Origin: Tetracentron sinense
Taxonomy: Eukaryota; Streptophyta; Magnoliopsida; Trochodendrales; Trochodendraceae
Assembly (NCBI GenBank): GCA_015143295.1
Contig: CM026561.1
Location: 44,210,875 to 44,274,874 of the forward strand
Reading direction: 5' to 3'
Length of the DNA: 64,000 nucleotides
Both the position numbers and the translations under genes were made by a program. Each line of letters opens with the position of its first letter. The stretch's first letter is position 1. The notes beneath the pieces are model-generated. The model was not told the DNA's origin. It searched no databases and saw only the letters and a list, made by a program, of their open reading frames with translations. Positions 22,402 through 55,600 of this stretch are shown piece after piece.

Positions 22402-23810
22402 TGTTAGCCTCAGGGTTACAACCATGGGTAACCCTAATAATTTTGATAATAATGTAATAATGAAATAAAAAATGTGGAACTAATAATCTTATTTTAAGTG
22501 CTTGAACATTTCATAATTCAAAGTTGCTAGCACTCCGATCATGAAAAATGATGGAAATTATCTAAGAGGAAGATCGACTCAAAGTATACAATTGAAGACT
22601 TAAGATAAGGCCATAGTCCAAGTTTGGTCCATTTGAAGGCAGAGACAAATCTCAAGACCCAAGACAAGTAAAGATCAACTCTCAAGAAACTTCAAGTGTA
22701 ATTTTCTTTTGATTGAGAGTACCTAGGACTTATGTAAAAAATTCTCAAAAGGATAGTAAGTTGAAAACTCAAGACATAGATTGACCATAGGAGCCTAGGA
22801 CACTTTTTAATAATCATTCTAAGGATCAATAAAATCATGTTAAAAGATAGTTAATTGACCTAGGAAATTAATCCCATCATCTTTGGTCTGATCTAGGACA
22901 GGATTCAGAATAATTGTTCTGAATTCGTAGACGAATTCTCAGAGAAGGTTGAATTCGGCGACGAAGTCATGACAGTAATTTCAAAATTACTTACTGTCTT
23001 TAGAATTCGGTGACGAAATCAAGTGGAAACTCCACTTTGTCGACGAATCCAAGCCTGAAACTGAAAAATTGTTATAATGATTAGTTTTCAACGGGTTAAA
23101 ATGCATTTAATGCTTATCAACGACTATATTGGATCAAGTGCTATAAAAGTAGTTCATTTATGAACTAATAACAACTCTTGATCATAGTAATAACTTCTAT
23201 TGATTACTCATTCATTGCTTTTGATTTCTCACTCACTCACATTCATAGAAAATCCCTAAATCTCTTTTGAGCTCATTAACTCCATTCTCTTTTGAGAGAT
23301 TTTGTTATTTTTTGTACTTCACTCTTATCCATCTCAATCAAGGAGCTATTTATTTTGGATTTCAAATCCAAACTCATTTTCTGAAAATTAGTCAAGAATC
23401 TAGGATTCTTGCACTGAAGTTCCAACTTCAGTTTTATCAAGAGAGGGAGGTGCTCTTGAAAGGTTTTAGCTCGGCCTAAAGGAGAGCTTGTAAAGGTAAT
23501 ATCTCGACATGTAAGAGAGATTGCAGAGGTTTAGACTCCACCCGTGAAGGAGTCTGTACGATTAAGGCATCGTGGTAAATCCTCTACCTGGAAGCTAGAG
23601 GCGGGGAGTAGGCTGGATTGCTGAACCTCGTGAACAAATTCTTGTGTTTGCTCCTTCTAATTCTTCTCATTTACTTTAAGTAATTTTCTTATTTAATCTT
23701 GTGTTGCAAATATTCTTTAATTCCGTATCTTGGATTTAGAATCTAAAAAATTAATTTAAATCTGCCATAGACCTTATTCACCCCCCTTTAGGGTCATTAT
23801 CTGGTCAACA
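22402..23810 (+). repeat. 5' LTR of copia element A
   Basis: Begins TGTTAGCCTCAGGG directly at the break in the Tat RT gene and ends CTGGTCAACA just before the primer-binding site, so it has TG...CA ends. Contents in order: four palindromic boxes (22921-23050), a TATA box TATAAAAG (23142-23149), and near the end the conserved copia phrase GAGGCGGGGAGTAGGCTGG plus GAACCTCGTGAAC (about 23599-23634), also present in both LTRs of element B. Confidence 0.85.
22921..23050 (+). promoter_or_regulatory. Four-palindrome module upstream of TATA, copia A LTR
   Basis: Boxes start at 22921 (GAATTCGTAGACGAATTC), 22951 (GAATTCGGCGACGAAGTC), 23003 (GAATTCGGTGACGAAATC) and 23033 (CACTTTGTCGACGAATCC), spaced 30, 52 and 30. 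Between boxes 2 and 3 is a perfect 8-bp stem GACAGTAA/TTACTGTC (22971-22998). The implied ideal box, GAATTCGTCGACGAATTC, is an 18-base palindrome. The TATA box follows 92 bases after the last box. A role in promoter control is inference. Confidence 0.75.
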
Positions 23811-23812
23811 AT

Positions 23813-23826
23813 TGGTATTAGAGCCT
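23813..23826 (+). promoter_or_regulatory. Primer-binding site, initiator Met tRNA type
   Basis: TGGTATTAGAGCCT two bases after the LTR. The usual copia site is TGGTATCAGAGC, complementary to the 3' end of initiator methionine tRNA; one C to T change is present. Confidence 0.85.
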
Positions 23827-23869
23827 AATACTCTAGATAGATCTAAAAAATCTAAGTAATTGATTTTTT

Positions 23870-25513
23870 ATGGTAAATGACATTTTTGCAACAAGCCTAG
23901 GAGAGAGACAGTCCACCACTAGACCTCAATTGTTTAATGGAGAAAATTATAACTATTAGAAAACCAGAATGATGTATTACATCCAAGCTCTAGATTATGA
24001 GTGTTGGAAGGTAATAGTCAATGACCCCCATTTACCCACAAAAATTATGGATGGTGTTAAAATCCCTAAGGTAGAAGAAGAGTGGAATGATGCTGACATT
24101 AAGCTCATTCAAACTAATACCAAGGCCATTAGTAACCTCTACTGTGCTTTAAGTCCTTAGGAATTTAATAGAGTCTCTGGATGTGACTTTGCTAAAGAAA
24201 TCTGAGATAAATTGAAAGTCACCTATGAAGGGACAAATCAGGTTAAGGAAGAAAAGATTAGCATGCTTGTTCACAAGTATGAATTATTTAAAATAGAAAA
24301 AGAAGAATCAATTGGTGATATGTTCACCAGATTTACTAACATTCTTAATGGTCTAAAATCCTTGGGAAAAGTTTATTCTAATGCAGAGAATGTACTGAAA
24401 GTTCTGAGATCTCTACCCAAGGAGTGGACACCAAAGGTCATTGCCATCCAGAAAGCAAAAGATCTCACCAAACTGCCTATGGATGAGTTGATGGGTTCAC
24501 TTATGAACCATAAAGTAATAATGAAGGATCAACTTCCAGATGAACCTAAAGCCAAGAAAGGACTGGCCCTCAAGACTACTCAAGTGGAAGACAGTGGTGA
24601 GGAATCCAATAGTGAGGATGAGCACATTGCCCTGATGGCAAGAAGATTCAAAAGGTTTCTCAAGCACAAGAAAATTTTTAAAAAGAGACCTTACAAGAAG
24701 GAGTTCTCAAAGGAGGTATCTAAGGCTGAATCAAGCAAGAAGGAACCCCTCACCTGTTATGAGTGCAAGAAGCCTGGCCACATAAGAATTGACTGCCCTC
24801 AACTCAAGAAGAGCCAAAGGTTCAAGAAGAGAGCTATGGTGGCTACTTGGGATGATTCAGAAGAAAGCAAGTCAGAAGATTCCAGTGATGAAGAGGTGGC
24901 AAATTTGTACCTCATGGCAAATGAGGATGAGGTAACTTCTTCTCCAAATGATTCTTTTTCATATGATGAAATAAGAGAGGCATTTGATGAGCTTTACATT
25001 GAATTTGGTAGAATAGCAAAATTAAACAAATCTTTCAAAAAGGAAATCGACACTCCTACTAACTCATGTGAAAATTTACAAACTAAAAATAGTAAATTAG
25101 AAGATGAAAATGAGGAACTACATGAAAAGATTAATGAATTTAAAAATACTCCTCATAACTCATCTAGTGAATGTGAAGAGCTTAAAGGTAAAGTCAAAAA
25201 TTTGACAAGCATAATTCTCATATTCACTAATGACCAAAAGAACTTAGAAAGACTTCTAAGTCAACAAATATGTGTTTTTAGCAAAGCTGGACTTGGTTAC
25301 AACACTTTTTCAAAACAAAAGGATTGTCATAATTTCTTTACTAAATTATGTAGTAACCATACTCCACTTTCCTCTTCCAAAACTGACCATAAAGGACCAA
25401 GAATGAAATGGGTTCCCAAGGGAACTAATCCTCCCAAGAACACTCAAAAGTTAAGTTGGGTTCCAACCAAAATTGTTTGGGTATCAGGAGGAAAATATCT
25501 TGGAGTTACTTGA
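23870..25513 (+). pseudogene. Gag of copia element A
   Basis: Starts MVNDIFATSLGERQS at 23870 and would run about 547 codons. In-frame stops occur at 23957 (after YNY, where Trp is expected), 24158 and 24203 (in KEI-stop-DKL, Trp expected). After that 433 codons are open to 25513. Domains: N-terminal UBN2/DUF4219-like region with ISMLVHKYELFKIEKEE; zinc knuckle CYECKKPGHIRIDC at about residue 190 of the open part; two acidic Ser/Glu/Asp-rich stretches; then a Lys/Glu coiled coil. Would form the particle shell and bind RNA. Pol follows in another frame. Confidence 0.88.
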
Positions 25514-25559
25514 ATCAGTTGTGTACCTGTGCCTCAAGTCAAGAACATCCAAGACAAAA

Positions 25560-26560
25560 TAGTTCCTGGATAGTGGATGCTCAAGGCACATGACCGGGAA
25601 CAAGAGGCTGTTTACATCACTTACACCAAAGGATGACAGACATGTAACTTTTGGAGACAATGCTAAAGGGAAGATCATTTGAATAGGTAGCATTTGTAAG
25701 AATAACTCTACCTTTATTGAAAATGTGTTGCTTGTAGATGGTCTTAAGCATAATCGTATTAGTATTAGTCAACTTTGTGATAAAGGCTTAAATGGTTCTT
25801 TTAAATCAAACATTTGCATGATTAAGGATAAAGACAATCTCAATATCATGTTTATTGCTTATAGAACTGAAAATGCGTATATTATAGATTTTGATGAGCT
25901 TCAATCTCAAAATATGATATGTTTTTATGCTATTGATGAAGCAAGTTGGTTATGACATAGAAGACTAGGACATGCTAGTATGGATCTTTTGTCTAAACTT
26001 TCTAAAAATGAATTAGTTAAAGACTTATCTAAGACTAAATTTATAAAAGACAAAATTTTTGATGCTTGCCAACTCGGAAAATAAATAAAATCTTCTTTCA
26101 AAACTAAGAAAATCATTTCTACCTCTAGAGCTCTTGCATATGGACCTTTTTGCCTCAAATGAAGTAGTTAGCCTATGAGGCAAAACTTATGCTTTTGTGA
26201 TTGTGGATGACTATTCAAGGTATTCTTGGGTACTATTCATTTCCCACAAAAATGAGGTACCTTCTTTATTTAAAAAGTTTTGCAAAAGAATTCAAAATGA
26301 AAAATGTTATTCTATTAACAATATAAGAAGTGATAGAGGAGGTGAGTTAAAAAATAAGGAGCTTCAGTCATTTTGTGATGAAAATGGTTTTAACAATAAT
26401 TTTTTAGCTCCTAGAACTCCCCAACAAAATGGAGTGGTAGAAAAAAAAAAGATCTCTTCAAGAAATGGCTAGAACTATGCTAAATGAAAACAAACTACCA
26501 AAATTTTTTGGGCTGAAGCCATTAATACCTCTTGTTATGCAATTAATGGAGTTGTTATAA
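25560..26560 (+). pseudogene. Protease and integrase, copia element A
   Basis: Protease begins with a stop at 25560 in place of an expected Trp, then FLDSGCSRHMTG (catalytic Asp in DSG). The integrase zinc-binding region includes HRRLGHAS after a stop at 25953 (Trp expected) and a further stop at 26082 after CQLGK (Gln expected). Frame changes, then 26197-26472 gives VDDYSRYSWVLF (Asp 1), RSDRGGE (Asp 2) and TPQQNGVVEKKK (Glu). All three catalytic acidic residues are therefore present, but in broken frames. Confidence 0.88.
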
Positions 26561-26716
26561 GAAATAATTGAATAAAATTCCCTATGAACTTTGGAATGGA
26601 AGAATTCCTAACATAAGCTACTTTAAGGTGTTTGAATGTAAATGCTTCATACTAATTGATAAACAACATCTTAAGAAGTTTGATGAAAATCTGTAGAAGG
26701 AATCTTCCTTGGATAT

Positions 26717-28627
26717 TTGATTACTAGTAAAGCTTATAGAGTATTTAAGAAGAAAACTTTAACTCTTGAAGAATCTATTTATGTTGTATTTGATGAATTA
26801 AATCATTTTAACAAACATTCAAATGATGTTGAAGATGAAATTGAAACTCTTCCTAAAGAAATCTCAAACTTGAAAATCAATGAAGATAACAAAGATAAAC
26901 AAATGGAAAAAGAATCAAATGATAAAATTATTAAAATAGAAAATGAGGAAGAAATTGAAGATGAAGAATCATATCAACTTCCCAAAGCTTGGAAACTTAT
27001 AAAAGATCATCCTCAAGACTTAATTCTTGGTAATATGGAACAAGGGTTAGAACAAGAAGAAATCTAATGAACCTTGCTTTCCTAAGTCAAATTGAACCTA
27101 AAAATGCCTTAGAAGTTATTGAAGATGAATCTTGGGGCATGATTATGCAAGAAGAATTAAACCAATTTGAAAGAAACCAAGTATGAGATCTAGTACCAAA
27201 ACCAAATGATAAATCTATAATTGGTACAAAATGAGTTTTTAGAAATAAAAAGGATGAAAATGAAAATGTAATTAAAAATAAAGCAAGACTAGTAGCTCAA
27301 GATTACAACCAAGAGGAGGGCATAGACTATGATGAAACCTTTGCCCCGGTTGCTAGACTAGAAGCTATAAGAATGTTAGTTGCATTTGCTAGTCATAAGG
27401 AATTCAAATTATTCCAAATGGATGTAAAAAGTGTACTTCTAAATGGATATATAAATGAAGAAGTATATGTAAATCAACCCCCTTGCTTTGAAAACCCTAA
27501 ATTTCCAAATCATGTCTTTAAGCTAACTAAATCCTTATATGGATTAAAACAAGCTCCAAGAGCTTGGTATGAAAGACTAAGTAGCTTCCTAATTGAAAAT
27601 GGATTCATAAGAGAGAAAATTGATACAATTTTATTTATAATGACCAAAAATGATGATATACTAATAATTCAAATCTATATTAATGACATCCTTTTTGGAT
27701 CAATTAATAAATCCCTATGTAAAATATTTGCTAAAACAATGCAAGAAGAATTTGAAATGAGTATGATGAGAGAACTAACATTCTTTGTAGGACTCCAAAT
27801 TAAGTAAACTAAATAAGGAACATTTGTTAATCAAGCCAAATATACTAAAGAATTACTCAAAAAGTTTAGAATGGAGCACATTAAAGTCATGGATACTCCT
27901 AAGAGTCCATCAACTAAACTTGACAAAGATGAAAAAGGTAAAAATGTTGATGAAAAACTATATAGAGGCATGATTGGAAGTCTTTTATATCTTACTGCAA
28001 GTAGACCTGACATTATGTACAGTGTTTGCATCTGTGCAAGATTCCAATCCTGTCTAAAAGAATCTCATTTAATAGCTGTGAAAAGAATCTTTAGATACTT
28101 GCTTGGCTCAATAGATTTAGGCTTATGGTATCCTAAAGACACAAATCTTGACTTAATAAGTTATTCAGATGCAGACTTTGCTGAATACAAAGTGGATAGA
28201 AAAAACACTAGTGGAACTTGTCACTTTCTAGGACATTATCTTGTTTCATGGTTTAGTAAGAAACAAAATTCAGTGGCCCTATCCACAGCTGAGGTTGAGT
28301 ATATGACAGTTGGACACTGTTGTGCTCAAACTTTGTACATGAAACAACAGTTAGAAGATTTCAAGCTTTTCTATACTAAAATACCTATTAAGTGTGATAA
28401 CACAAGTGCAATTTGCATGACTAAAAATCTCATTCAACACTCAAGGACTAAACACATAGAAATCAGATATCATTTTATAAGGGATCATGTTTAAAATGGA
28501 TATGTTATCTTAGAATTTGTGGATACAAATAATCAACTCGCTGATATCTTTACCAAACCCCTTCAATCTGATAGGTTTAGAACCTTAAGAGGAGAATTGA
28601 GCATGACTAGTCTAAATGAATTAAATT
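26717..28627 (+). pseudogene. RT and RNase H, copia element A
   Basis: An acidic linker (26717-27067) precedes RT. The block at 27373-27807 has FQMDVKSVLLNG (catalytic Asp), YGLKQAPRAWYERL and, in place of the YVDDI box, YINDI, so the first Asp of the active site is changed to Asn. The block at 27871-28494 is the end of RT and RNase H (RPDIMYSV, YSDADFAEYK, STAEVEYM, LPIKCDNTSA-like ICMTKN). Pol ends LADIFTKPLQ...MTSLNELN at about 28627. Stops at 27184, 27232 and 28492 sit at expected Trp, Trp and Gln codons. Confidence 0.9.
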
Positions 28628-29127
28628 GATCATAAATGAAATCCTTGAAATGATATGATAAAATTGTTCGAAGAATGATTTAAATGACTTATGATATTTT
28701 TGAATGCTTTAATGAACCAATGGTTTCAAGAAAAGTGGTTGAAAATTTAAATTAAAATGAATTTCTCAAATTCTGTATTGAATTCGGCGACAAATTCAGC
28801 TGGGAATTTGAATTCGGTGACGAATCTTTGGGTAAGTTTGAAAACAGAATGTTTTCTGTACCTAATTCGGCGACGAATCTGGATGATCCATCCACTTCGT
28901 CGACGAAGTCATCCCGAATTTTAAAACAGTAGGTTTCCTGACTCAATTTCGGTGACGAATTTAGGGATGAACCCCAATTCGGTGACGAAATTGGTCGAGG
29001 GTATAAATATAAACTCCCAAATTCGATTCTTTTCAAAACCTAAATTCTTCCCTACTTTTCCTATTCCATTGCTCCTGCACCAAAAAATTTTCCAAATCTT
29101 TCAAATCCAATCCCTAATCGTGTAAGA
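28628..29127 (+). promoter_or_regulatory. Internal promoter-like spacer with six palindromic boxes
   Basis: Between pol and the extra ORF lie six copies of the same box family as in the copia A LTR, starting at 28780, 28810, 28863, 28893, 28945 and 28975; spacings 30, 53, 30, 52 and 30 match the LTR module. Box 4 contains a perfect 16-base palindrome ACTTCGTCGACGAAGT (28894-28909). A stem ACAGAA/TTCTGT lies between boxes 2 and 3 (28844-28859). TATAAATA follows at 29002-29009, and the ORF starts 119 bases later. This has the layout of the LTR promoter without being an LTR. Promoter activity is inferred. Confidence 0.65.
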
Positions 29128-29418
29128 ATGCTTCCAAAGATGAAGAATGCATCAGTGGAGCCCTCAAAGAAAAGAGCACCCTCAGACAAGGGCAAGGAGC
29201 CTGCTACGAGTTCGGCTCCAATACCAGTCAAGTTCAAAGAGGCCAAGTTCGAGAAGCTGTTCAAAGATAAATTTCTACCTCGTTCCCCTCTTTATGGTAA
29301 AGTGGTCAACTTTCTTAATCTATCTGCCTATGAGTTAGAACCCATTAAAACTCTATTTTCTGCCCTAAAATGAGAATCTTTCTTATCTTTAAATGAAATC
29401 ATGTTCCCAGAATTAGTT
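29128..29418 (+). pseudogene. Extra ORF downstream of pol, truncated
   Basis: Starts MLPKMKNASVEPSKKRAP at 29128 and is open for 81 codons, to 29373. Similar sequence seems to continue past the stop (FLSLNEIMFPELVRLR) until about 29418, where copia B's LTR begins. Basic, Ser/Ala-rich N-terminus, then KFKEAKFEKLFKDKFL and VVNFLNLSAYELEPIKTLF. Plant SIRE-like elements often carry an additional ORF of unknown or env-like function here; I do not recognise this one beyond its position. Its own promoter-like spacer is directly upstream. Confidence 0.5.
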
Positions 29419-30596
29419 AGATTAAGATAAAGATATAAGAAGGAGAAGATTGATTTTGAAGCTAAAGAAGACAATCAAGTTAAGATCAAGTTGATAAAGA
29501 ATGAAGACTTAAAAAGGTTTAATCGTTATATATTTTAGTTTGAGAGTGATTAGGACTTTTGTAAAAAGTCCTCAAAGTTTGGTTGTAGAAAAACTCACAA
29601 ACTTAGAATGACCATAGGTATCTTAAGACCTAATTTAAAATCTCTTTAAAGACTTAAAAAGATAGTAATTATCTTGATAAAGATAAGGTAGAAGACATTG
29701 GAATTCAATCACATCATCAAGGTCTTGCAAAATGGATTTTGGGAAGAAAATGCATCATCCAGTCGACTAGATGGAGCCATCCAGTTGACTAGATGAAGGC
29801 CAGAATGTTAATCTGGCCATTGTGATTATCCAATCGACTAGATGACCAATCTAGTCCACTAGATGGGGTGGGACAAAGTTTTTTTAAACTTTGTAACGAC
29901 TATATTTCAGTGGCTCTTTTTGTAATCAATGCCTCCCAATGGCCATAAAACCTCTTGGGGTATAAATATGGATGATTTATGAACTAAAATAAGCACTGCA
30001 ATCATTCCAATCATTCCTCTCACTCTATTATTCATTGATCAATCATTTGAGTTAAAAACCTAGAAAACCCAAAAGAGTTCAAATTGAGTTATTCAACTCC
30101 ATTTCTTTGAGAGACTCTTAGAGAGCGTTCAAGTAATCTAGAGTAATTTTAGATTGTAAACACTTCTCATCCAAGTATATTGAATCAAGAGGTTTGTAGG
30201 ACTCTTGTCTTTGAAGGGGGGATACTTCATTGTATGGTTTGGTTTCTACCTGTAAAGAGGACTGAAGTCAAGAGAGTGGATTCTCTTGCAAGTGTAAATG
30301 TTTGATCTTCACTCGGAAGAAGATCGTGTGACTAAGTAAATTGTAGTGAATTCTCTAGCAGGTATAGCTTGAGGCGGGAATGTAGGCGGGATTACCAACC
30401 TCGTGAACAATATCATTGTGTTTGCATTCTCTTATTATTCTCTTTACTTTATTGTTTTTACATTGATTGTAAAATAGCATAAACTCTATTTCCTTTCAAT
30501 TTGTTAAAATTGAAATTTCGTTTAAGAAAATATGAGAAAAATTGAATTTGCTATATACCCTATTTACCCCTTCTAGGGTCGAATCCTTGGGCAACA
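29419..30596 (+). repeat. 5' LTR of copia B, first ~225 bases missing
   Basis: Matches 33190-34389 and ends GGGCAACA before the primer site. The LTR start seen in the right copy (about 32966-33190) is absent, because the junction with copia A's extra ORF falls inside the LTR. Contains four palindromic boxes, TATAAATA at 29961-29968, and the GAGGCGGGAATGTAGGC and AACCTCGTGAAC phrases near the end. Confidence 0.85.
29756..29865 (+). promoter_or_regulatory. Four-palindrome module, copia B left LTR
   Basis: Boxes at 29756 (CATCCAGTCGACTAGATG), 29778 (CATCCAGTTGACTAGATG), 29827 (TATCCAATCGACTAGATG) and 29848 (AATCTAGTCCACTAGATG), spaced 22, 49 and 21. A perfect 7-bp stem GGCCAGA/TCTGGCC (29799-29818) sits between boxes 2 and 3. 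TATA follows 95 bases after box 4. Same plan as copia A, different box sequence. Confidence 0.8.
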
Positions 30597-30598
30597 AG

Positions 30599-30611
30599 TG
30601 GTATCAGAGCC
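30599..30611 (+). promoter_or_regulatory. Primer-binding site, copia B
   Basis: TGGTATCAGAGCC two bases after the LTR end, an exact match to the usual initiator methionine tRNA site. Confidence 0.9.
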
Positions 30612-30659
30612 TAGGTCTCTATTTTTTAAATGATTTAACCATCTTAGAGAAAATATTTT

Positions 30660-32226
30660 AAATTGACAAAAATTGATAATATATATGCTACTACCCTTAG
30701 AGAAGGTCAAACAACTACTATATCTCCCTTGTTTGATGGACAAAACTATAATTATTGAAAAGTTAGAATGATGTATTTCATTCAAGCTTTGGATTAAAAT
30801 TGTCAATGACATTCAAGTACCAAAGAATGAGAATGAATGGATGGAAGCCGATACAAGGCTTGTGCAACTTAATACCAAAGCTATTAGCAATGTATATTGT
30901 GCATTAAGTTTATAAGAATTCAATAGGATTTCGACATGTGAATCATCTAAGGAAATTTGGGATAAACTCCAAATTACCTATGAGAGAACCAACCAAGTTA
31001 AAGAACAAAAAATTAGCATGTTAGTTCATAAATATGAATTGTTTAAAATGAAACAAAATGAACCTATTTCATTTATGTTCACTAAATTCACTAACATTAT
31101 TAATGAGTTAAAATCTCTTGGTAAGATCTACTCTAATACATAAAATGTAAGAAAGATTCTCCGATCTCTACCAAAAAAATGAGCTCCAAAGGTGACGATC
31201 ATCCAAGAAACTAAAGATCTCACAAATCTATTCATGAATGAGTTACTTGGATCATTAATGACACATAAAGTCATCTTGAGGGAACAAAAAGATGAAGAAC
31301 CCACACTAAAAAGGGGTCATGCCTTAAAATCCTCACAAATGAGTGAAAGTGAAGAGGATGAAAGTGAAGAAGAAGATGACAAGAAAGTTCAAGAAAATTT
31401 TGAAACATAAGAAGAACCTCAAGAAAAGAGCATTCAAGAAAGAATTTTCCAATGAGTACATCAAAGACAAATCAAGCAAAGAAGAAGAGATAGTGTGTTA
31501 CAAGTGCAAAAAACCCAGACATATCAAATCGGAGTGCCCCTTACTCAAGAAAAGCCAAACATACAAGAAGAGTCCTATGAAAGCTATTTGAGATGACTCC
31601 GATGAAAGTGGATCGGATATGAGCTCAAGTGATGGGGAGCAAGCCAATCCATGTCTCATGAAACATGATGATGAGGTAAATTCAACACTTGATGAATCTC
31701 CTTCCTTTGATGATTTAAGAGAAGCTTTTGATGAACTTTATGATGAATTAAAAAAATTAGCTTCTCAGAACAAAAAGCTTAAGAAAGAAAATTCTTCTCT
31801 ATTAAACAAGAATAAATTTTTGAAAAAGGAAAAAGAAAATTTATTAGAAGAAAATGAGATTTTGAAAAAGAAAAAAAGAAGAAATTGCATCTAAGCCTCA
31901 AATTCAAATAAATGAATGCAATGAATGTGATAAACTAAAATCTAAAGTTGATGAGTTGTGTAAAATAGTGACTAAATTTATAATGGTAAAAAGACTCTAG
32001 ATACCATGCTAGGAAATCAAAAATGCATGTTTGATAAAGAAGAAATTGGTTATAATATATCTATCAAACAAAAATCTTATCAAATTTTTTTTTACCTCTA
32101 GCTCTTCTAGTAGTTCCTATACATATGTTGGAAAGAAGAGAGTAAGGCAAGTTTGGGTGCCTAAGGGAACATATCTTCCCAAGGCTAACCTAGTTGGACC
32201 CAAAAAGGTTTGGGTACCAAAATGAG
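30660..32226 (+). pseudogene. Gag of copia B
   Basis: Related to copia A gag along its length: an N-terminal part with VRMMYFIQALD (about 30765-30800) broken by stops; 31192-31410 with DLTNLFMNELLGSL; a zinc knuckle CYKCKKPRHIKSEC at about 31497 in a shifted frame; a Ser/Asp-rich stretch; a strong Lys/Glu coiled coil at 31715-31890; and a C-terminal VWVPK at 32150-32226. At least three frame changes. The final GPKKVWVPK matches the end of element A's gag, after which A continues into pol and B does not. Confidence 0.8.
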
Positions 32227-32965
32227 CTACTTGAACTTGTTCATGTAGACTTAATTATAAAAGAAGGAAGTGTACTAAATGATTATAACTCAAATGATTC
32301 CTTATGTGATCATGTTTGATTATATTATGCTTAATATTTAAATATTGATTGATGATATGTTTTTGATGTGATGATTGATGCTTGATGTTATGAAATATTT
32401 GAATTGGATGAATAATGAATGCTTGGTATTTAAATATGTGATATATGTTTGCATATATGTATGTTTTGATATATGTAATGCCTGTAAATATACTTTGCTT
32501 AAATACCTTGATAAATAATGGTAACATGTGCTTATGTGATATTTTTGTGATGATTGACAAATTGAAGAAAATATGAATGTATTGATATACACGATTGATA
32601 TAATAGGATGATGCTTGATATATAATGAATTGATTTTATTGGTATCATGTTTGAAATACTTGTTAATTCTGTATTTGTTGATGTTGCCGATGAGAGAAAT
32701 ATGATAATAGAATGAATTATCTAAACCCTTGAAATTATTGGAATAATTTGCTTAAATAACATATTCAAATTGATTTCAAATAGTTTGTAATGACTTATTA
32801 AAGTGTCATGAATTAGTGAATGGTTCATCTAAACTATATGCAAATGAATTGAATTCAAATCTTCTTTTAATGCATATGTTTAGGGAGAGTCTGCCTCAAA
32901 ATATTAATTGAATTTATATATTCAGGGACAGCTTATTCTCATTCTATTCCATTATTATATCATCA
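32227..32965 (+). other. A/T-rich 3' non-coding region of copia B
   Basis: No protein. TGATAT, TGATTG and TATGTTTG words recur from 32290 to 32640 without a fixed period. TTTAGGGAGAGT at about 32879 resembles the purine-rich phrase that precedes the 3' end in related elements. Confidence 0.5.
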
Positions 32966-34389
32966 TAGGTTTCCACCTTAGGTCTCCTTAGTGATTTTGA
33001 TAATAACACAATAATGAAATGAGATTTGTGTTACTAATGCTTCTATGAAGTTTAAGTGTAATTCAGTTTATGAAGAACATTAACAAACCATTTAAGGTAA
33101 AAATATGGAAATGACACCAAACATCCATCAAAGCCAATGGTGAAGTCTATTCAACTCAAAGCTAAAAAGATCATATCAAAAGCTCAAGTCATTAAGATGA
33201 AGATATAAGAAGAAGAAGATTGATCTTGAAGCTAAAGAAGACAGATCAAGTCAAGATCAAGTTGAAGAAGAATGAGGACTCTTAAAAAGGTTTAATAGTT
33301 TTATATTTAGTTTGAGAGTGATTAGGACTTTTGTAAAAAGTCCTTAAAGTTTGGTTGTTGAAAAGTCCACAAACTTAGAAGGACCATAGGTACCTTAAGA
33401 CCTAATTTAAAATCTCTTTAAGGACCTAAAAAGATGAAAATTAGCTTGATAAAGATAAGGTAGAAGACCTTAGAATCAAATCCCATTATTAAGGTCTTGG
33501 AAAATGGATTTTGGACAGAAAATGAACCATCCAGTCGACTAAATGGAGCTGTCCAGTCGACTAGATGAAGGTCAAAATGTTAATCTGGTCACTGCGATCA
33601 TCTAGTCGACTAGATGACCCATCCAGTCGACTAGATGGGGCAGAATAATTTTTTTTTAAAATCTGTAATGGCTATATTTCAACGGCTCTTTTTACAATCA
33701 ATACCTCCACAACGGCCATAAAACCTCTTGGGCTATAAATATGGATGATTTAGGAACTAAAATAAGTACCCTAATCCTTACAATCATTTTATAACTCACT
33801 CTATCATTCATTGATCAATCATTTGAGTTAAAAACCTAGAAAATCCAAAAGAGTTCAAATTGAGCTATTCAACTCTATTTCTTTAAGAGACTCTAAAAGA
33901 GCATTCAAGTGATCTATCAGTTCATGTAAGAAGCAATTTTATATTGTAAACACTTCTCATTCAAGTGTATTGAAATCAAGAGGTCCGTGAGACTCTCGTC
34001 TTTGAAGTGGTGATATTTCATTGTAAGGTTTGGTCTCTATCCATAAAGAGGATTGAAGTCAAGAGAGGGGATTCTCTTGCAAGTGTAAATGTTTGATCTT
34101 CACCCGAAAGAAGACTGTGCGATTGAGTAAATCAGGGTGAATCCTCTAGCGGGTATAGCTTGAGGCGGAGACGTAGGCGGGATTACCGAACCTCATGAAC
34201 AATATCGTTGTGTTTGCATTCTCTTACTCTTCTCTTTACTTTATTGTTTTTACATTGATAGTAGAATTGCATAAATTCTATTTCCTTTTAATTTGTTAAA
34301 ATTGAATTTCTGTTTAAGGGAATAGGATAAAAATTGAATTTGCGATAGACCTTATTCAAACCCCTCTAGGGTCGAATCCTTGGGCAACA
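32966..34389 (+). repeat. 3' LTR of copia B
   Basis: Starts near 32966 by alignment with copia A's LTR start (the shared TTTTGATAATAA phrase); the first two bases read TA rather than TG. Ends GGGCAACA at 34389, exactly where copia C's protease sequence starts. Contains four palindromic boxes and TATAAATA at 33734-33741. Confidence 0.8.
33528..33637 (+). promoter_or_regulatory. Four-palindrome module, copia B right LTR
   Basis: Boxes start at 33528, 33550, 33599 and 33620, with the same 22, 49 and 21 spacing as the left LTR. Box 3 is a perfect 20-base palindrome TCATCTAGTCGACTAGATGA (33598-33617). The stem between boxes 2 and 3 is partly eroded here. Confidence 0.8.
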
Positions 34390-35860
34390 ACCGGTGCATC
34401 CAATCACATGATATTTGATCCTGCCCTTTTTTATTCATACACTAAAACTTCATCTATTCCACCTGTTAAACATCCAAATGACACTTTTGCACCAGTAACT
34501 CATATTGTCATTGTTCATCTAGCACCTCTTATTCACTTGCATCATGTCTTGTGCATTCCTTCTTTTGGTTTCAACCTCATTTTTGTTAGCAAACTCATAT
34601 CATCTCTACCTTGTGCTGTTTCTTTTTCTCATGATTGTTGTGTGTTGCAGGACCTGTCCAAGAAGATAACGATTGGAGTGGCTAAACAACATGGCGGCCT
34701 CTACTACTTCCAAGATTTTTCCATTCCAAGTACTACCCCTTCAATAAATTTAGCAACTTTTGATGTATGGCATTGGTGATTAGGCCATGTTTCTTTTAAT
34801 AGATTAGAACTTTGATCTACCCAAGTTGCTTAAATTTGTAGTCCATCTTCATGCCAATGTGATATTTATCCACTTACTAAACAAACATGTTTACCATTCA
34901 TATCAAGTAGTATTACTTCTTCTAGACCTTGAATTAATATATTGTAACATTTTGGGGGCTACTCCACGCCTTCCACTTTTGGGGTGCGTTATTTTTTAAC
35001 CATCGTTGATAATTTTTCACAATGTATTTGGGTGTTCCTCATGCGTTTTAAATCTGAAACTAAAAGTCTTTTACAATATTTCTTTGCCCTTGTTCACACC
35101 CAATTTAATAGCAAGATTAAACAAGTATCACAAATAATGGATCTGAATTTTTGTCCCATGAAATGTGTTATTTCTTTCATCAAAATGGTGTTCTTCACCA
35201 ACATAGTTGTGTTGTGACTCTACAACAAAATGGTATTGTTGAACGCAAACACCGCCTCATTCTTGAAATTGCAAGGGCCTTACGTTTTCAAGCAAATTTA
35301 CCCATCTGTTTTTGGGGAGAATGCATCTTAACAGCCGTTTACCTCATCAACCGTTTACCCACACCCATTTTATCCAACAAAACTCCGTTTACCTCATCAA
35401 CCGTTTACCCACACCCATTTTATCCAACAAAACTCCTCATGAATGCCTTCTCACAAAACCACCCACTTATGCTCATTTACGGGTTTTTGGTTATTTATGT
35501 CATGCAACTACAAACCCGTATCAACGTAATAAATTTGCTCCCCATGCTAGAAAATGTATATTTGTTGGGTACTCACATGGGCAAAAGGGCTATAGTTTAT
35601 TTGATCTGCAAAATCAATCCTTTTTCACCAACCGTGATGTTATATTCCATGAAACAATTTTTCTTCTTAAAAACCACCCTCACATTGCCACCTCTAGACC
35701 TTCACCTACTGTGTTACCCTTACCCATCCTTGAGAACACTTCACTTCCCTCCCTCCCTTCCCCATCCTTTGACTATACACCCAATGTCATTGAACCCGTT
35801 CCTAATGATGACTCGACCACTCACTCCAATTCTCCTTCCCTCCCACCTACCTCAGTAGCT
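34390..35860 (+). pseudogene. Protease end and integrase, copia element C
   Basis: The first codons after B's LTR read TGASNHMIFDP, the copia protease active-site region; its DTG Asp lies on the other, missing side of the insertion. The pre-integrase segment 34408-34779 has HLHHVLCIPSFGFNLIFVSKL and LYYFQDF. The HHCC region (34780-34930) is full of stops. The core includes FLTIVDNFSQCIWVFL (34990) and TLQQNGIVERKHR (about 35220, Glu). Frames are broken at several points, one of them by a 50-base duplication. Confidence 0.85.
35335..35434 (+). repeat. Exact 50-bp tandem duplication inside copia C pol
   Basis: The bases from CCGTTTACCTCATCAACCG through CCAACAAAACT occur twice in a row, 35335-35384 and 35385-35434. 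Because 50 is not a multiple of three, the reading frame moves. The frame before the duplication continues correctly in the frame that runs to 36061 (VFGYLCHATTNPYQ, RKCIFVGYSHGQKGY). Confidence 0.95.
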
Positions 35861-52626: not shown

Positions 52627-55600
52627 TGTGAGCATGAGATTTTCCTACCCACTTTCACACATTATGCTTTGACTGAGAGTCGCCACCTATTCATTCTTAG
52701 GGATAGGTCCCAGATGGTTGGATAAGGAAAATAGTTTAATCATAGTTAGGATAAGCAGTTCGATTAAGCCCCGGGGAAGGTGTTAGGTACCCCAGGACCC
52801 CTATTTTACAAATGGTAACCTACTCCCTAAACTTAAGCCAAATTTAATCTCGAAGTTTAATTAAAATACCTAAATGTTTAATCCATTGTTAATCCAAGAA
52901 AGAAATAAAGCTAAATGAGCTAGGGTCGAACCCGAGTAGGGTTGCCTACGTACTCACCGAGTGAGATTAGATTGAGCGTAGTTTTGGCACATGAGCCCGT
53001 GCCAAGGTTAGGGGTGCTCATGTGCCAAAACTAGGGGTGTGTGTATGTGTGTGTGCATAGGGTGGTCCAAGGTCTAGTCTGGAGGCTAGGGTTTAGTTGA
53101 CCGGGTTGGTCAAGTGCAAGGTCGGGTCTAACTGTAGTTAGAGGGGAGTTAGCCATGGTTAGGGGCTTACCAAGGTTAATAAGTCCTAACAAGCATGTTT
53201 TTGGTTTTTTTAAATATTTTTTTGGTATTTTTGGGGATTTTTCCAAAGGGTTGAGCATCTTAACCATGGTTAAAAATTCACTGGAGTTGGGTTAACTCCA
53301 GTTAAATGGGCTAGAAAGGGTAAAAATTACCACAGAAGATCATTTTAGGCTTTTTGGAATATTTTGGATTTTTCTGTCATTTTTTCATATTTTTAACCAT
53401 GGTTTAGGGTCCGGCTCGGTCCAAAATTGGAGTTGACTATGATTAAAGGTCCTAACCATGGTTAAATTGATCATGGAAGCCCATTCTAGAATCCAGGGAA
53501 TATTTATGATTTTTTGATCAATTTTTCAGAATTTTCTTGGGTCATGGGCTGCTTAACCATGGTTAAAAGTTAACCACAGGTGGGTTTAGCCATGGTTAAG
53601 GGTCCGGCTTGATTAAAAGTGGGTCCAAGGACCATGGCAGGGCCTAGACTAGCCTCTTACCCGGTCTGGGTCCTCACAAAGGTCTGAAATTGCCAAAAAA
53701 AGTCAAATTATCAAACACATTTTTAATCATGATTAGCATGAGTTTAACCATGGTTAATGGGGGAACCACGAGAAACTGAGACTATGGTTGCGAAGCCTGC
53801 TATACATAGAATGATTTGAGCCTTTATTGGGCCCAAAAGAAGGTTGTGGGTGGGCCCCACAAAGGCCCAAAGTGGCATAGTTGAACATCACATAAAATGA
53901 CGTTTTTCCTAAACAACATTTTTACCAAAGTTTGCGCGGATTTAACCACGGTTTTGCTCAACCCCCGGGGGAACCGAGACTACTGTTGTGAAGATTACAC
54001 TTCAAGAAACAAATTGGGCCTTTGGTGGGCCCAAGAGGAGGTCAGGTGTGGGCCCCACAGAGGCCCAAAGTCACCTAGTCCAGCATTTTTGCATACAGTC
54101 GACCCCACTTTGGGGTCGATTTAACCATGGTTACCGTTCGAGTTAAGGACTGGTATGACTCAAGAGGATATCTAGGAGTAAGGGGAACCTAATCATGGCC
54201 CTGGTCTTGACCAGGGCCCATACTAACCGTGGTTAACAAAGTAATTACAATGAATGTAAAATAGGGGTCTGCTGTAATTATTTTTGTTTAAAAAAAAAAA
54301 AAAAACCTTGTTCCCTCATGGGGCTGTGATAGCTCAAGTCCATGGGGGTTTCTCACGGTCTGAGGACCTCCCGGACCTTAAGGGGAGTTGATCATAGAGG
54401 GGGGAGTGCTAACCCGAGTTAGGTCTCAAGGGGTTCGCCCCACGCCATGGTTAAGGCGGGAGGACCCTTGTCCTTGGCTTGGGCATCTATTGCAAAATAA
54501 AAAAAAGAAAATGGAGACTCTTGGAATAGGACCAGGGGTCCCTTATAGTGGTATTGGTAAGATAACAAAGTAAGGGAGTGGGAGGTATACCCTCTGGTTG
54601 CTACTGTGGTGGCTACGGTTGTGGATGGAGTGGTGTACCAAGGGAATGCAGAAGGCCTGGGTGAACTCTAAGGAGGTCTGGGAGGCCTCCTAAGCTACTG
54701 GTGTGGGTTGGTGAGATGAGGCAGGGCTCTCCCGTTTTGGACAGGATTCGGGTATGAATGTGGTGGTGGTGTGAAATGGTGCGGCAGGCTGAGGAAGGTT
54801 GAGGCAACTCCGGGGACTTCTGGGTATCCTACGAAGGTCTCAAGTGGAGAGCTGAAGCTTGGAGAGGTTGTGGGTTGGGGTTCAAAAGGGGTGTTTTCGA
54901 GGTGGTTTGCACAACTGGTATGAGATTACTTGGGTCTGTGGTTTTAGGTTTAATGCAAGACATCAAATGGGGAAGTTGCAGGCTGGGGAATGCTGCACAG
55001 GCTAAGATATTCACTAAAGGGGAAATAGGCAGGCCTAATACCTAGCCTATAATACAGATAAATACAAGGAGGTTGAGAATAGGCTCATGCATGTGGGTGT
55101 GCTGGTTTGCAATGCATGAATATGGGTTTAATGCATGCATGAGTTACACATTAACACTTCCAAAAGAAATAAACAAAAACAAAATCAGCATGTGTGTGCC
55201 TGTGTGTCATGTTAACCACATACTAACCCTTCATCGATATATATGCGCATGTGGACTGTGCTTGGGATGAGTGTTAGTTTCATGCTAACATTTCTCAAGT
55301 ATGTGCATGGGACGGTTAGAGTACATGGGCTTTGGTCTTGGTGTGGCGGTTAGATCTAGTGGGCTTGGGCCTATGCAATAGGAAATCACATAGGTCTTGG
55401 GTAAAGAGCATGGTGCTATGGGTTTTGTTCATGGACTTGGGCCCTTGAGGCTTTGAATTAGCCTTGGGCATGGACCTAGGGCTTAGACCTAGGGCTAGCT
55501 TTGGATTTAGGGTTGGGCCGAAGCTTGGACCCTTGGGGCTTGGAGGTTTAGACCTAGGGTTATGACATGCTCTAGGGTTAAGGTTGAGCTAAACATGATT

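Follow-up and report, generated by a model that had tools for sequence, protein, structure and literature searches.

Paired box arrays before the promoter and the envelope-like gene of Sirevirus-like retrotransposons in Tetracentron sinense

What purpose is served by pairs of short, partly palindromic boxes set at regular intervals before the TATA of a retrotransposon, and which of their properties is kept: sequence, symmetry or spacing? The question is raised by 64,000 nt of Tetracentron sinense DNA (CM026561.1, 44,210,875-44,274,874, forward strand; "the window", whose positions serve as coordinates here), in which the long terminal repeats (LTRs) of a copia-type element, A, and of a second element, B, each carry four such 18-base boxes. 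Judging from sequence comparison within the window and across the genome, we consider it probable that the boxes form the repeated-motif array of Sireviruses, with sites for a probably homodimeric factor that serves two promoters of one element, one in the LTR and one ahead of its envelope-like gene.

Matching arrays at two positions in element A

A preliminary description of this DNA had placed four boxes in each LTR, with steps between box starts of 30, 52 and 30 in A and of 22, 49 and 21 in both LTRs of B, followed by a TATA box some 90-100 bases past box 4. All of these positions and steps were recovered (Table 1), with TATAAA lying 91 bp (A), 95 bp (B left) and 96 bp (B right) from the end of box 4. 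The preliminary description overlooked a further six-box A-type array at 28780-28992, located between pol and the envelope-like open reading frame (ORF) of A, with steps of 30, 53, 30, 52 and 30. The array is followed by a TATA of its own (29002) and, 126 bp past it, by the ATG of the envelope-like ORF at 29128. Its first four boxes start 222, 192, 139 and 109 bp before the internal TATA, compared with 221, 191, 139 and 109 bp in LTR-A. Between the two window arrays the four box pairs are identical at 57/72 bases; the two 12-base within-pair spacers agree at 4/12 each.

Repetition of one 18-mer is far beyond chance: matches with at most 3 mismatches number five for the A type (taking in two env-side boxes and leaving out LTR-A box 4) and eight for the B type, against a mean of 0.00 in 100 shuffles each. 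Palindromy on its own is only moderately enriched. Of nine possible arm pairs, boxes 1 to 4 match 8, 7, 6 and 5 in A, 8, 7, 6 and 7 in B left, and 7, 6, 9 and 8 in B right, LTR-A box 4 being a poor palindrome (5/9). Palindromic 18-mers with at least 7/9 pairs, a count that includes some non-box palindromes, number 4 in the unique 3' region (U3) of A, 2 on the env side, 5 in B left and 3 in B right, and these counts were reached by 12, 286, 1 and 34 of 2000 first-order Markov sequences, respectively.

The plan of pair, pair and TATA is retained over many genomic copies of both A-type arrays. For the LTR, 20 of 39 matches outside the window, mostly the best, were fetched, and for the env side the 20 best of 39, giving 21 copies each with the window included. 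Steps of exactly 30, 52 and 30 occur in 19/21 LTR-A copies, the last step being 29 in the other two, and the distance from the start of box 4 to TATAAA is 109-111 bp in 20 copies and 114 bp in one. On the env side, steps of exactly 30, 53 and 30 occur in 16/21 copies; four are off by one base in a step (L058, L061, L065, L066) and one (L068) misses a box call, and in two (L054, L056) a step of 35 replaces the later 52. TATAAA is present in 19/21 env-side copies; among these, box starts at 27, 57, 109, 139, 192 and 222 bp ahead of it are seen in 18, 18, 16, 14, 12 and 12 (the remainder mostly one base off). An ATG-started ORF follows 122-131 bp downstream of TATAAA in 16/21. Median box starts before TATAAA are 222, 192, 140 and 110 in 19 LTR copies and 222, 192, 139 and 109 in 15 env copies. 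Set against the env copies, the LTR copies show an identity of 0.78-0.88 in the box cores and of 0.35-0.39 in the 12 bases that follow each box; random 12-mers give 0.27. The LTR and env-side arrays look like old duplicates, in which spacers have drifted near to background and boxes and steps have been kept.

Box types and their spacing across the genome

The A and B boxes had been described as unrelated in sequence, the box having changed completely between the two families. That view fails because both are centred on GTCGAC, which has been retained; outside this centre B does stand apart from A. Nor is spacing alike in the two families, the within-pair step being 21-22 bp in B and 30 in A. 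A third type, C (CTCGTCGACGAA), has TCGTCGACGA in common with A (TTCGTCGACGAA) and is a close variant of it, B (CYAGTCGACTRG) being apart.

An exact B-box query found 49 places, from which 45 LTR arrays were analysed, each holding a perfect B box by construction. Within-pair steps are 21-22 in 73/76 cases and between-pair steps 48-52 in 38/45 (exceptions 38, twice; 58; 60; 68, twice; and 88). A box-free query, the B LTR from its TATA onwards, returned another 39 matches, 80-88% identical, 37 of them newly fetched and the other two being the window's left LTR and L004. B boxes occur in five of these LTR-end matches (left B, L004, L079, L080, L087); the other 34 hold at least two boxes of type C, AACTCGTCGACGAATTC, matching at 10 or more of 14 scored positions. 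C LTRs have within-pair steps of 30-32 in 56/64 cases and between-pair steps of 49-51 in 32/33. The exact-B-box loci themselves are 66-82% identical to B of the window over the LTR end (31 of 45 with a match). LTR ends that are alike can thus bear different boxes, and pairwise identity of the LTR end, taken without a tree, is not a simple guide to box type. The within-pair step mostly tracks box type, at 21-22 in B and 30-31 in A and C, with exceptions. One LTR (L032:60-1720) carries B-type pairs some 210-220 bp apart beside the usual two, followed directly by a partial second LTR with its own B array.

Arrays ahead of envelope-like reading frames also occur with C and B boxes. The C core followed by TATAAATA at 4-24 bases was found at four places, three of which were fetched, the fourth being a T/A-rich match. 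All three (L128, L129, L130) have C-core arrays ahead of env-like reading frames, that of L129 being interrupted after 31 aa. Their boxes start 140, 109, 57 and 27 bp before TATA in L128 and L130 (measured to the second TATAAATA, not an earlier one) and 119, 89, 48 and 27 bp before it in L129, so that the last box lies at 27 bp in 3/3 where the pattern permitted 20-40 bp; the same distance of 27 to TATAAA is seen in 18/19 A-type env copies that have TATAAA. The corresponding B pattern was found at 12 places, and of eight fetched two (L134, L137) have B-type arrays ahead of an env-like ORF, with boxes at 208, 187, 117, 96, 48 and 27 bp and at 227, 206, 138, 117, 47 and 26 bp before TATA, and a within-pair step of 21 in 6/6 pairs. 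The other six are without an env-like ORF and have distances of 21, 27, 30, 31, 31 and 40. A last env box 26-27 bp before TATA thus recurs in the A, C and B types.

LTR arrays lie about 3-4 kb downstream of these env arrays, with boxes 224, 193, 142 and 112 bp before TATAAA in L133 and 195, 174, 123 and 102 bp in L132 (the third box weak in each), and 222, 200, 133 and 112 bp in L142, which is of type B. L131 retains two boxes, and the stretch fetched downstream of L137 (L143) holds no LTR array. From order, orientation and distance we infer that each env array and the next LTR downstream belong to one element. Box class is the same in both at 4/4 loci that have an LTR array, namely L128/L131, L129/L132 and L130/L133 with the TCGTCGACGA core and L134/L142 with type B, as it is between the env side and 5' LTR of A in the window.

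Relation to known systems and possible function

The preliminary description knew of no named system of this kind. The feature is known in kind, because Bousios et al. (2010, BMC Genomics 11:89; PMC2829016) describe Sirevirus repeated motifs (RM), palindromic and present in many copies in the upper LTR half before TATA. In nine elements with an ENV gene, that paper places RM boxes ahead of TATA as well as ahead of ENV, listing a single consensus for each element. The boxes described here resemble RM in being repeated palindromic boxes, many imperfect, clustered before the LTR TATA; in having further boxes ahead of the ENV gene (in the window at 28780-28992, in the 20 copies fetched, and with the C core and type B); and in varying in sequence between elements. 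A published Vitis element has a box, CGGTCGACCG, with the same GTCGAC centre. Unlike most RM, the A, B and C boxes have GTCGAC at their centre and no CGG-CCG arms, a signature of 12/13 published elements, Tnd-1 being without it. RM were counted at eight or more copies per element in PMC2829016; A has four in its one LTR present and six on the env side, and B four per LTR and none on an env side, reaching eight only when both LTRs are counted. Sirevirus membership is suggested by other features as well. The 5' LTR/primer binding site (PBS) junction defined there as CA/A(T or G)TGG/TATCAGAGC is exact in left LTR-B, with AGTGG, and present in LTR-A with one mismatch in the PBS. A C-rich signal near the LTR end, also given as a Sirevirus trait, was seen by eye as CACCCCCC in LTR-A and as shorter C runs in the LTRs of B. 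The junctions and the C run fit Sireviruses as defined in that paper. The Sirevirus polypurine tract (PPT), AGGGGGAG, is described there as lying 10 bp upstream of the 3' LTR in several copies; no exact octamer precedes right LTR-B, and upstream of the LTR arrays exact octamers number two in L132, one in L142 and none in L131 and L133.

Three features were not found in the parts of PMC2829016 considered here or in the literature searched: the matched internal array with its own TATA, which looks new, a pair step that mostly tracks box type, and the occurrence of different box types on LTR ends that resemble each other. The RM account in those parts contains nothing on paired steps, on spacing by box type or on a TATA at fixed distance behind ENV-side boxes. 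An internal ENV promoter was proposed, yet none conclusively identified (PMC2829016, section 20), and another source names stop-codon suppression and an internal promoter as elucidated mechanisms of env expression, with function unproven (PMC3414828); expression of the Sirevirus envelope-like gene is left unsettled between these two sources, as far as their relevant passages go. Among later reports in the open-licence literature searched, none describes paired spacing or an array of this kind at an internal env promoter. Palindrome clusters of maize Sireviruses (2016, Genome Res 26:226, known from citing passages) likewise lie in the regulatory LTR part and are reported to vary in sequence, and here similar LTR ends carry different box types. 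An analogue in mode of working, not a relative, is offered by the VANC proteins and motifs of VANDAL transposons (Hosaka et al. 2017, PMC5735166; Sasaki et al. 2023, PMC10398659, both as excerpted), where short motifs are arrayed in non-coding parts and change together between related families; unlike the present elements, VANDALs are DNA transposons, with motifs in one orientation and a known element-encoded binding protein.

The boxes would act as an upstream activating array, with paired sites repeated in tandem and standing at a defined distance from TATA, read by a sequence-specific, probably homodimeric DNA-binding factor. In U3 the array would drive the genomic RNA, and before the internal TATA it would drive the envelope-like gene; one factor acting on both would switch the two promoters together. 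A change of box type affects both arrays, and the within-pair step mostly goes with the type. Sites for a dimeric DNA-binding protein had been among the suggestions of the preliminary description, and this one fits best. The plan of pair, pair and TATA is kept over copies; the emphasis on palindromy as the property kept is not supported. Right arms were permuted among boxes and symmetric pairs counted, after copies without a four-box grid had been dropped from this and from the folding counts (0/21 LTR-A, 1/21 env-A, 8/37 C, three of them B-type, and 22/45 B). Symmetric pairs number 788 against a permutation mean of 796.8 in B, 392 against 392.7 in LTR-A, 351 against 355.4 in env-A and 547 against 556.4 in C. 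The B figure uses 118 of 166 boxes, the 48 perfect ones being excluded because the query required a perfect B box per array. In 84/118 of these non-index boxes the arms are asymmetric at pair 5 (left C, right A). The four permutation tests give no support to palindromy or arm covariation as a conserved property, and the lack of covariation, together with the fixed asymmetry, argues for recognition by sequence. Binding, a dimer, transcription from either promoter and their co-regulation are what we infer from sequences, spacings, their persistence in copies and the agreement in box type between LTR and env side.

Could the boxes instead act as RNA, with transcript hairpins (in U3, which is 3'-terminal in the genomic RNA, and in the pol-env linker) templating small RNAs, a role suggested for the palindromes of maize Sireviruses, or forming a structured signal, and the DNA arrangement merely following from that role? 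Stem-loops between boxes 2 and 3, claimed previously, are visible in folds of LTR-A and left LTR-B, and none appears there in the fold of right LTR-B. All four window arrays fold better than 200 shuffles (z -3.9, -5.6, -7.5 and -3.7), as repeats of a palindrome must. The spacer between pairs also folds better than shuffles at p<0.05 in 18/29 C, 9/21 LTR-A, 5/23 B and 3/20 env-A copies, compared with 0, 1, 2 and 0 for next-door control stretches and 0, 0, 5 and 2 for a second control further on. Small RNAs have moreover been reported to map to the maize Sirevirus palindromes (Genome Res 26:226, via citing passages). Arm-by-arm compensation does not support an RNA role: arms do not covary in any of the four sets, and most B boxes carry a fixed mismatch. 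Such a role also leaves unexplained the spacing to TATA and the position before a TATA on both sides, and we regard it as unlikely. Inheritance without function is a second possibility, in which the LTR promoter was copied to the env side by duplication or template switching, and the copy was kept or homogenised by recombination, its grid being inherited. It would account for the shared box type and, in A, the shared grid, and spacers are slightly more alike (0.35-0.39) than random (0.27). Boxes and steps have nevertheless persisted next to spacers that are almost at background, the interval of 26-27 bp to TATA recurs with three box types and differing env-like ORFs, and the env side has two boxes more than LTR-A; taken together, these make descent alone improbable. 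Least credible are functionless tandem repeats that expand and contract like small satellites, despite a repeat unit of about 71 bp in B and 82 bp in A and C, spacing changes near 9-10 bp steps and boxes that decay at the LTR rate in element B. The spacers of such units differ while the boxes agree, the arrays precede TATA in both LTR and env side, and boxes recur in distant elements of other plants (PMC2829016).

The preliminary description had named divergence of the arms at the neutral LTR rate as telling against its proposal, and inside element B this is what is found: 10/72 box sites differ between its two LTRs (0.139) versus 0.121 elsewhere. These LTRs stand at a Kimura two-parameter distance of 0.135, about 5-10 million years at substitution rates of 1.3e-8 and 7e-9 per site and year. 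Boxes within this dead copy are unprotected, as expected after insertion. Decay in a dead copy does not test a claim about families, and the case rests on comparison between families and between arrays. Spacing changes fall near 9-10 bp steps, as slippage by half a box would give. Helical phasing of these changes is not used as support: for eleven hand-listed events V is 0.47 at 10.5 bp (p 0.013 relative to uniform sizes of 4-24) and a higher 0.69-0.73 at 9-9.5 bp, which slippage would also produce, and the four box-to-TATA variants in each of the C and B LTRs (V 0.52 and 0.44) are no clearer.

Several observations weigh against a factor that reads both arrays. Copies share descent, so their counts are not independent, and because spacer similarity is slightly above background part of the grid coincidence must be left to common descent. 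The three types are nearer to two classes, since A and C share the core TCGTCGACGA. LTR and env grids match exactly in A only; L130/L133 are off by 2-3 bp (140, 109 versus 142, 112), and L129/L132 and L134/L142 differ by more. L132 has the TCGTCGACGA core yet steps of 21, 51 and 21, its env array (L129) having 30, 41 and 21, and 8/64 within-pair steps in C LTRs are 13, 21 or 22. Box-to-TATA distance in LTRs is looser than box-to-box distance: 94 or 108 bp in C LTRs, also 77, 95, 96, 106, 111 and 129, and in B LTRs 108-115 bp for the last box in 28/39 (39 of the 45 have TATAAA), the others at 97-101, 120-122 or 156. Pattern matches outnumber those of the reversed control by 4 to 3 for C and 12 to 3 for B, and the case for the C and B env loci rests on the adjoining arrays and ORFs, not on these counts.

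A host factor is the default candidate for the box-binding protein. The envelope-like gene may itself encode one instead of an envelope: a nuclear protein that would switch on, or free from silencing, both its own promoter and the LTR and would change along with box type, as VANC proteins do with their motifs, leaving elements without the gene, such as B, dependent in trans; we think this doubtful at best. It is favoured solely by the gene's position downstream of the same boxes and, as a weak lead, by a short basic cluster close to the N terminus in 20/27 env-like pieces, the seven misses including both B-type pieces and three copies without an ORF. The window piece matched no family in a Pfam search. 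A longer env-like ORF (L049) matches PF20167, putative plant transposon protein, a family with 150 scored matches among 3656 candidates in this genome; a protein-database search with that ORF gave no match, and upstream of it none of the three box types was found at the thresholds used. The region upstream (L049:4850-5300) does contain an inverted repeat, CGGTAG...CTACCG, resembling boxes published for other Sireviruses.

The internal array with its TATA, the pair step that mostly tracks box type and the box-type change on similar LTR ends allow a direct test of whether a promoter of its own, controlled as the LTR is, serves the envelope-like gene. The array with its own TATA, a constant 26-27 bp from the last box in three box types, gives a precise place to seek a transcript start, and natural variants in box type, pair step and TATA distance could help to identify the factor that reads Sirevirus boxes.

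Elements in the window and other observations

Element A carries gag and reverse transcriptase regions (PF14223, PF00098, PF07727) and has lost its 3' LTR. Its envelope-like ORF terminates at the start of the truncated left LTR of B (29371-29430). Between 30596 and 32960 element B has a gag 65% identical to that of A over 127 aa, and a search with the reverse transcriptase and RNase H pieces of A found no match in it; because gag is present and those matches are not, B looks like a gag-only derivative.

Table 1. Features of elements A and B, in window positions.
Feature	Position	Strand	Remarks
5' LTR of element A	22403..23808	+	read from sequence; ends approximate, TG...CA; CA/ATTGG/PBS-like junction
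LTR-A box 1	22921..22938	.	starts 221 bp before TATAAA
LTR-A box 2	22951..22968	.	starts 191 bp before TATAAA
Stem-loop between box pairs, LTR-A	22971..22998	+	seen in fold; ends approximate
LTR-A box 3	23003..23020	.	starts 139 bp before TATAAA
LTR-A box 4	23033..23050	.	starts 109 bp before TATAAA
TATAAA of LTR-A	23142..23147	+	
gag ORF of element A	24206..25513	+	PF14223, PF00098
Reverse transcriptase piece of element A	27235..27807	+	PF07727
Env-side box 1	28780..28797	.	starts 222 bp before TATAAA
Env-side box 2	28810..28827	.	starts 192 bp before TATAAA
Env-side box 3	28863..28880	.	starts 139 bp before TATAAA
Env-side box 4	28893..28910	.	starts 109 bp before TATAAA
Env-side box 5	28945..28962	.	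starts 57 bp before TATAAA
Env-side box 6	28975..28992	.	starts 27 bp before TATAAA
TATAAATA of proposed internal promoter	29002..29009	+	
Envelope-like ORF start, element A	29128..29373	+	81 aa, then stop; cut off by LTR-B
Left LTR of element B	29421..30596	+	first part missing
Left LTR-B box 1	29756..29773	.	
Left LTR-B box 2	29778..29795	.	
Stem-loop between box pairs, left LTR-B	29798..29818	+	seen in fold; ends approximate
Left LTR-B box 3	29827..29844	.	
Left LTR-B box 4	29848..29865	.	
TATAAATA of left LTR-B	29961..29968	+	
Right LTR-B box 1	33528..33545	.	
Right LTR-B box 2	33550..33567	.	
Right LTR-B box 3	33599..33616	.	perfect palindrome
Right LTR-B box 4	33620..33637	.	
TATAAATA of right LTR-B	33734..33741	+	

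The right LTR of B continues into pol of a further copia element (34318-34776; PF22936). Elsewhere in the genome, the long stretches L047, L048 and L050 held no informative array; L050 (588-7800) has two gag-like regions about 5.9 kb apart, apparently from nested or neighbouring copia elements. In the window at 53250-54140 a palindrome unrelated to the boxes, TTAACCATGGTTAA, occurs at 53260, 53553 and 53744, and in shortened form at 53453 and 54122.

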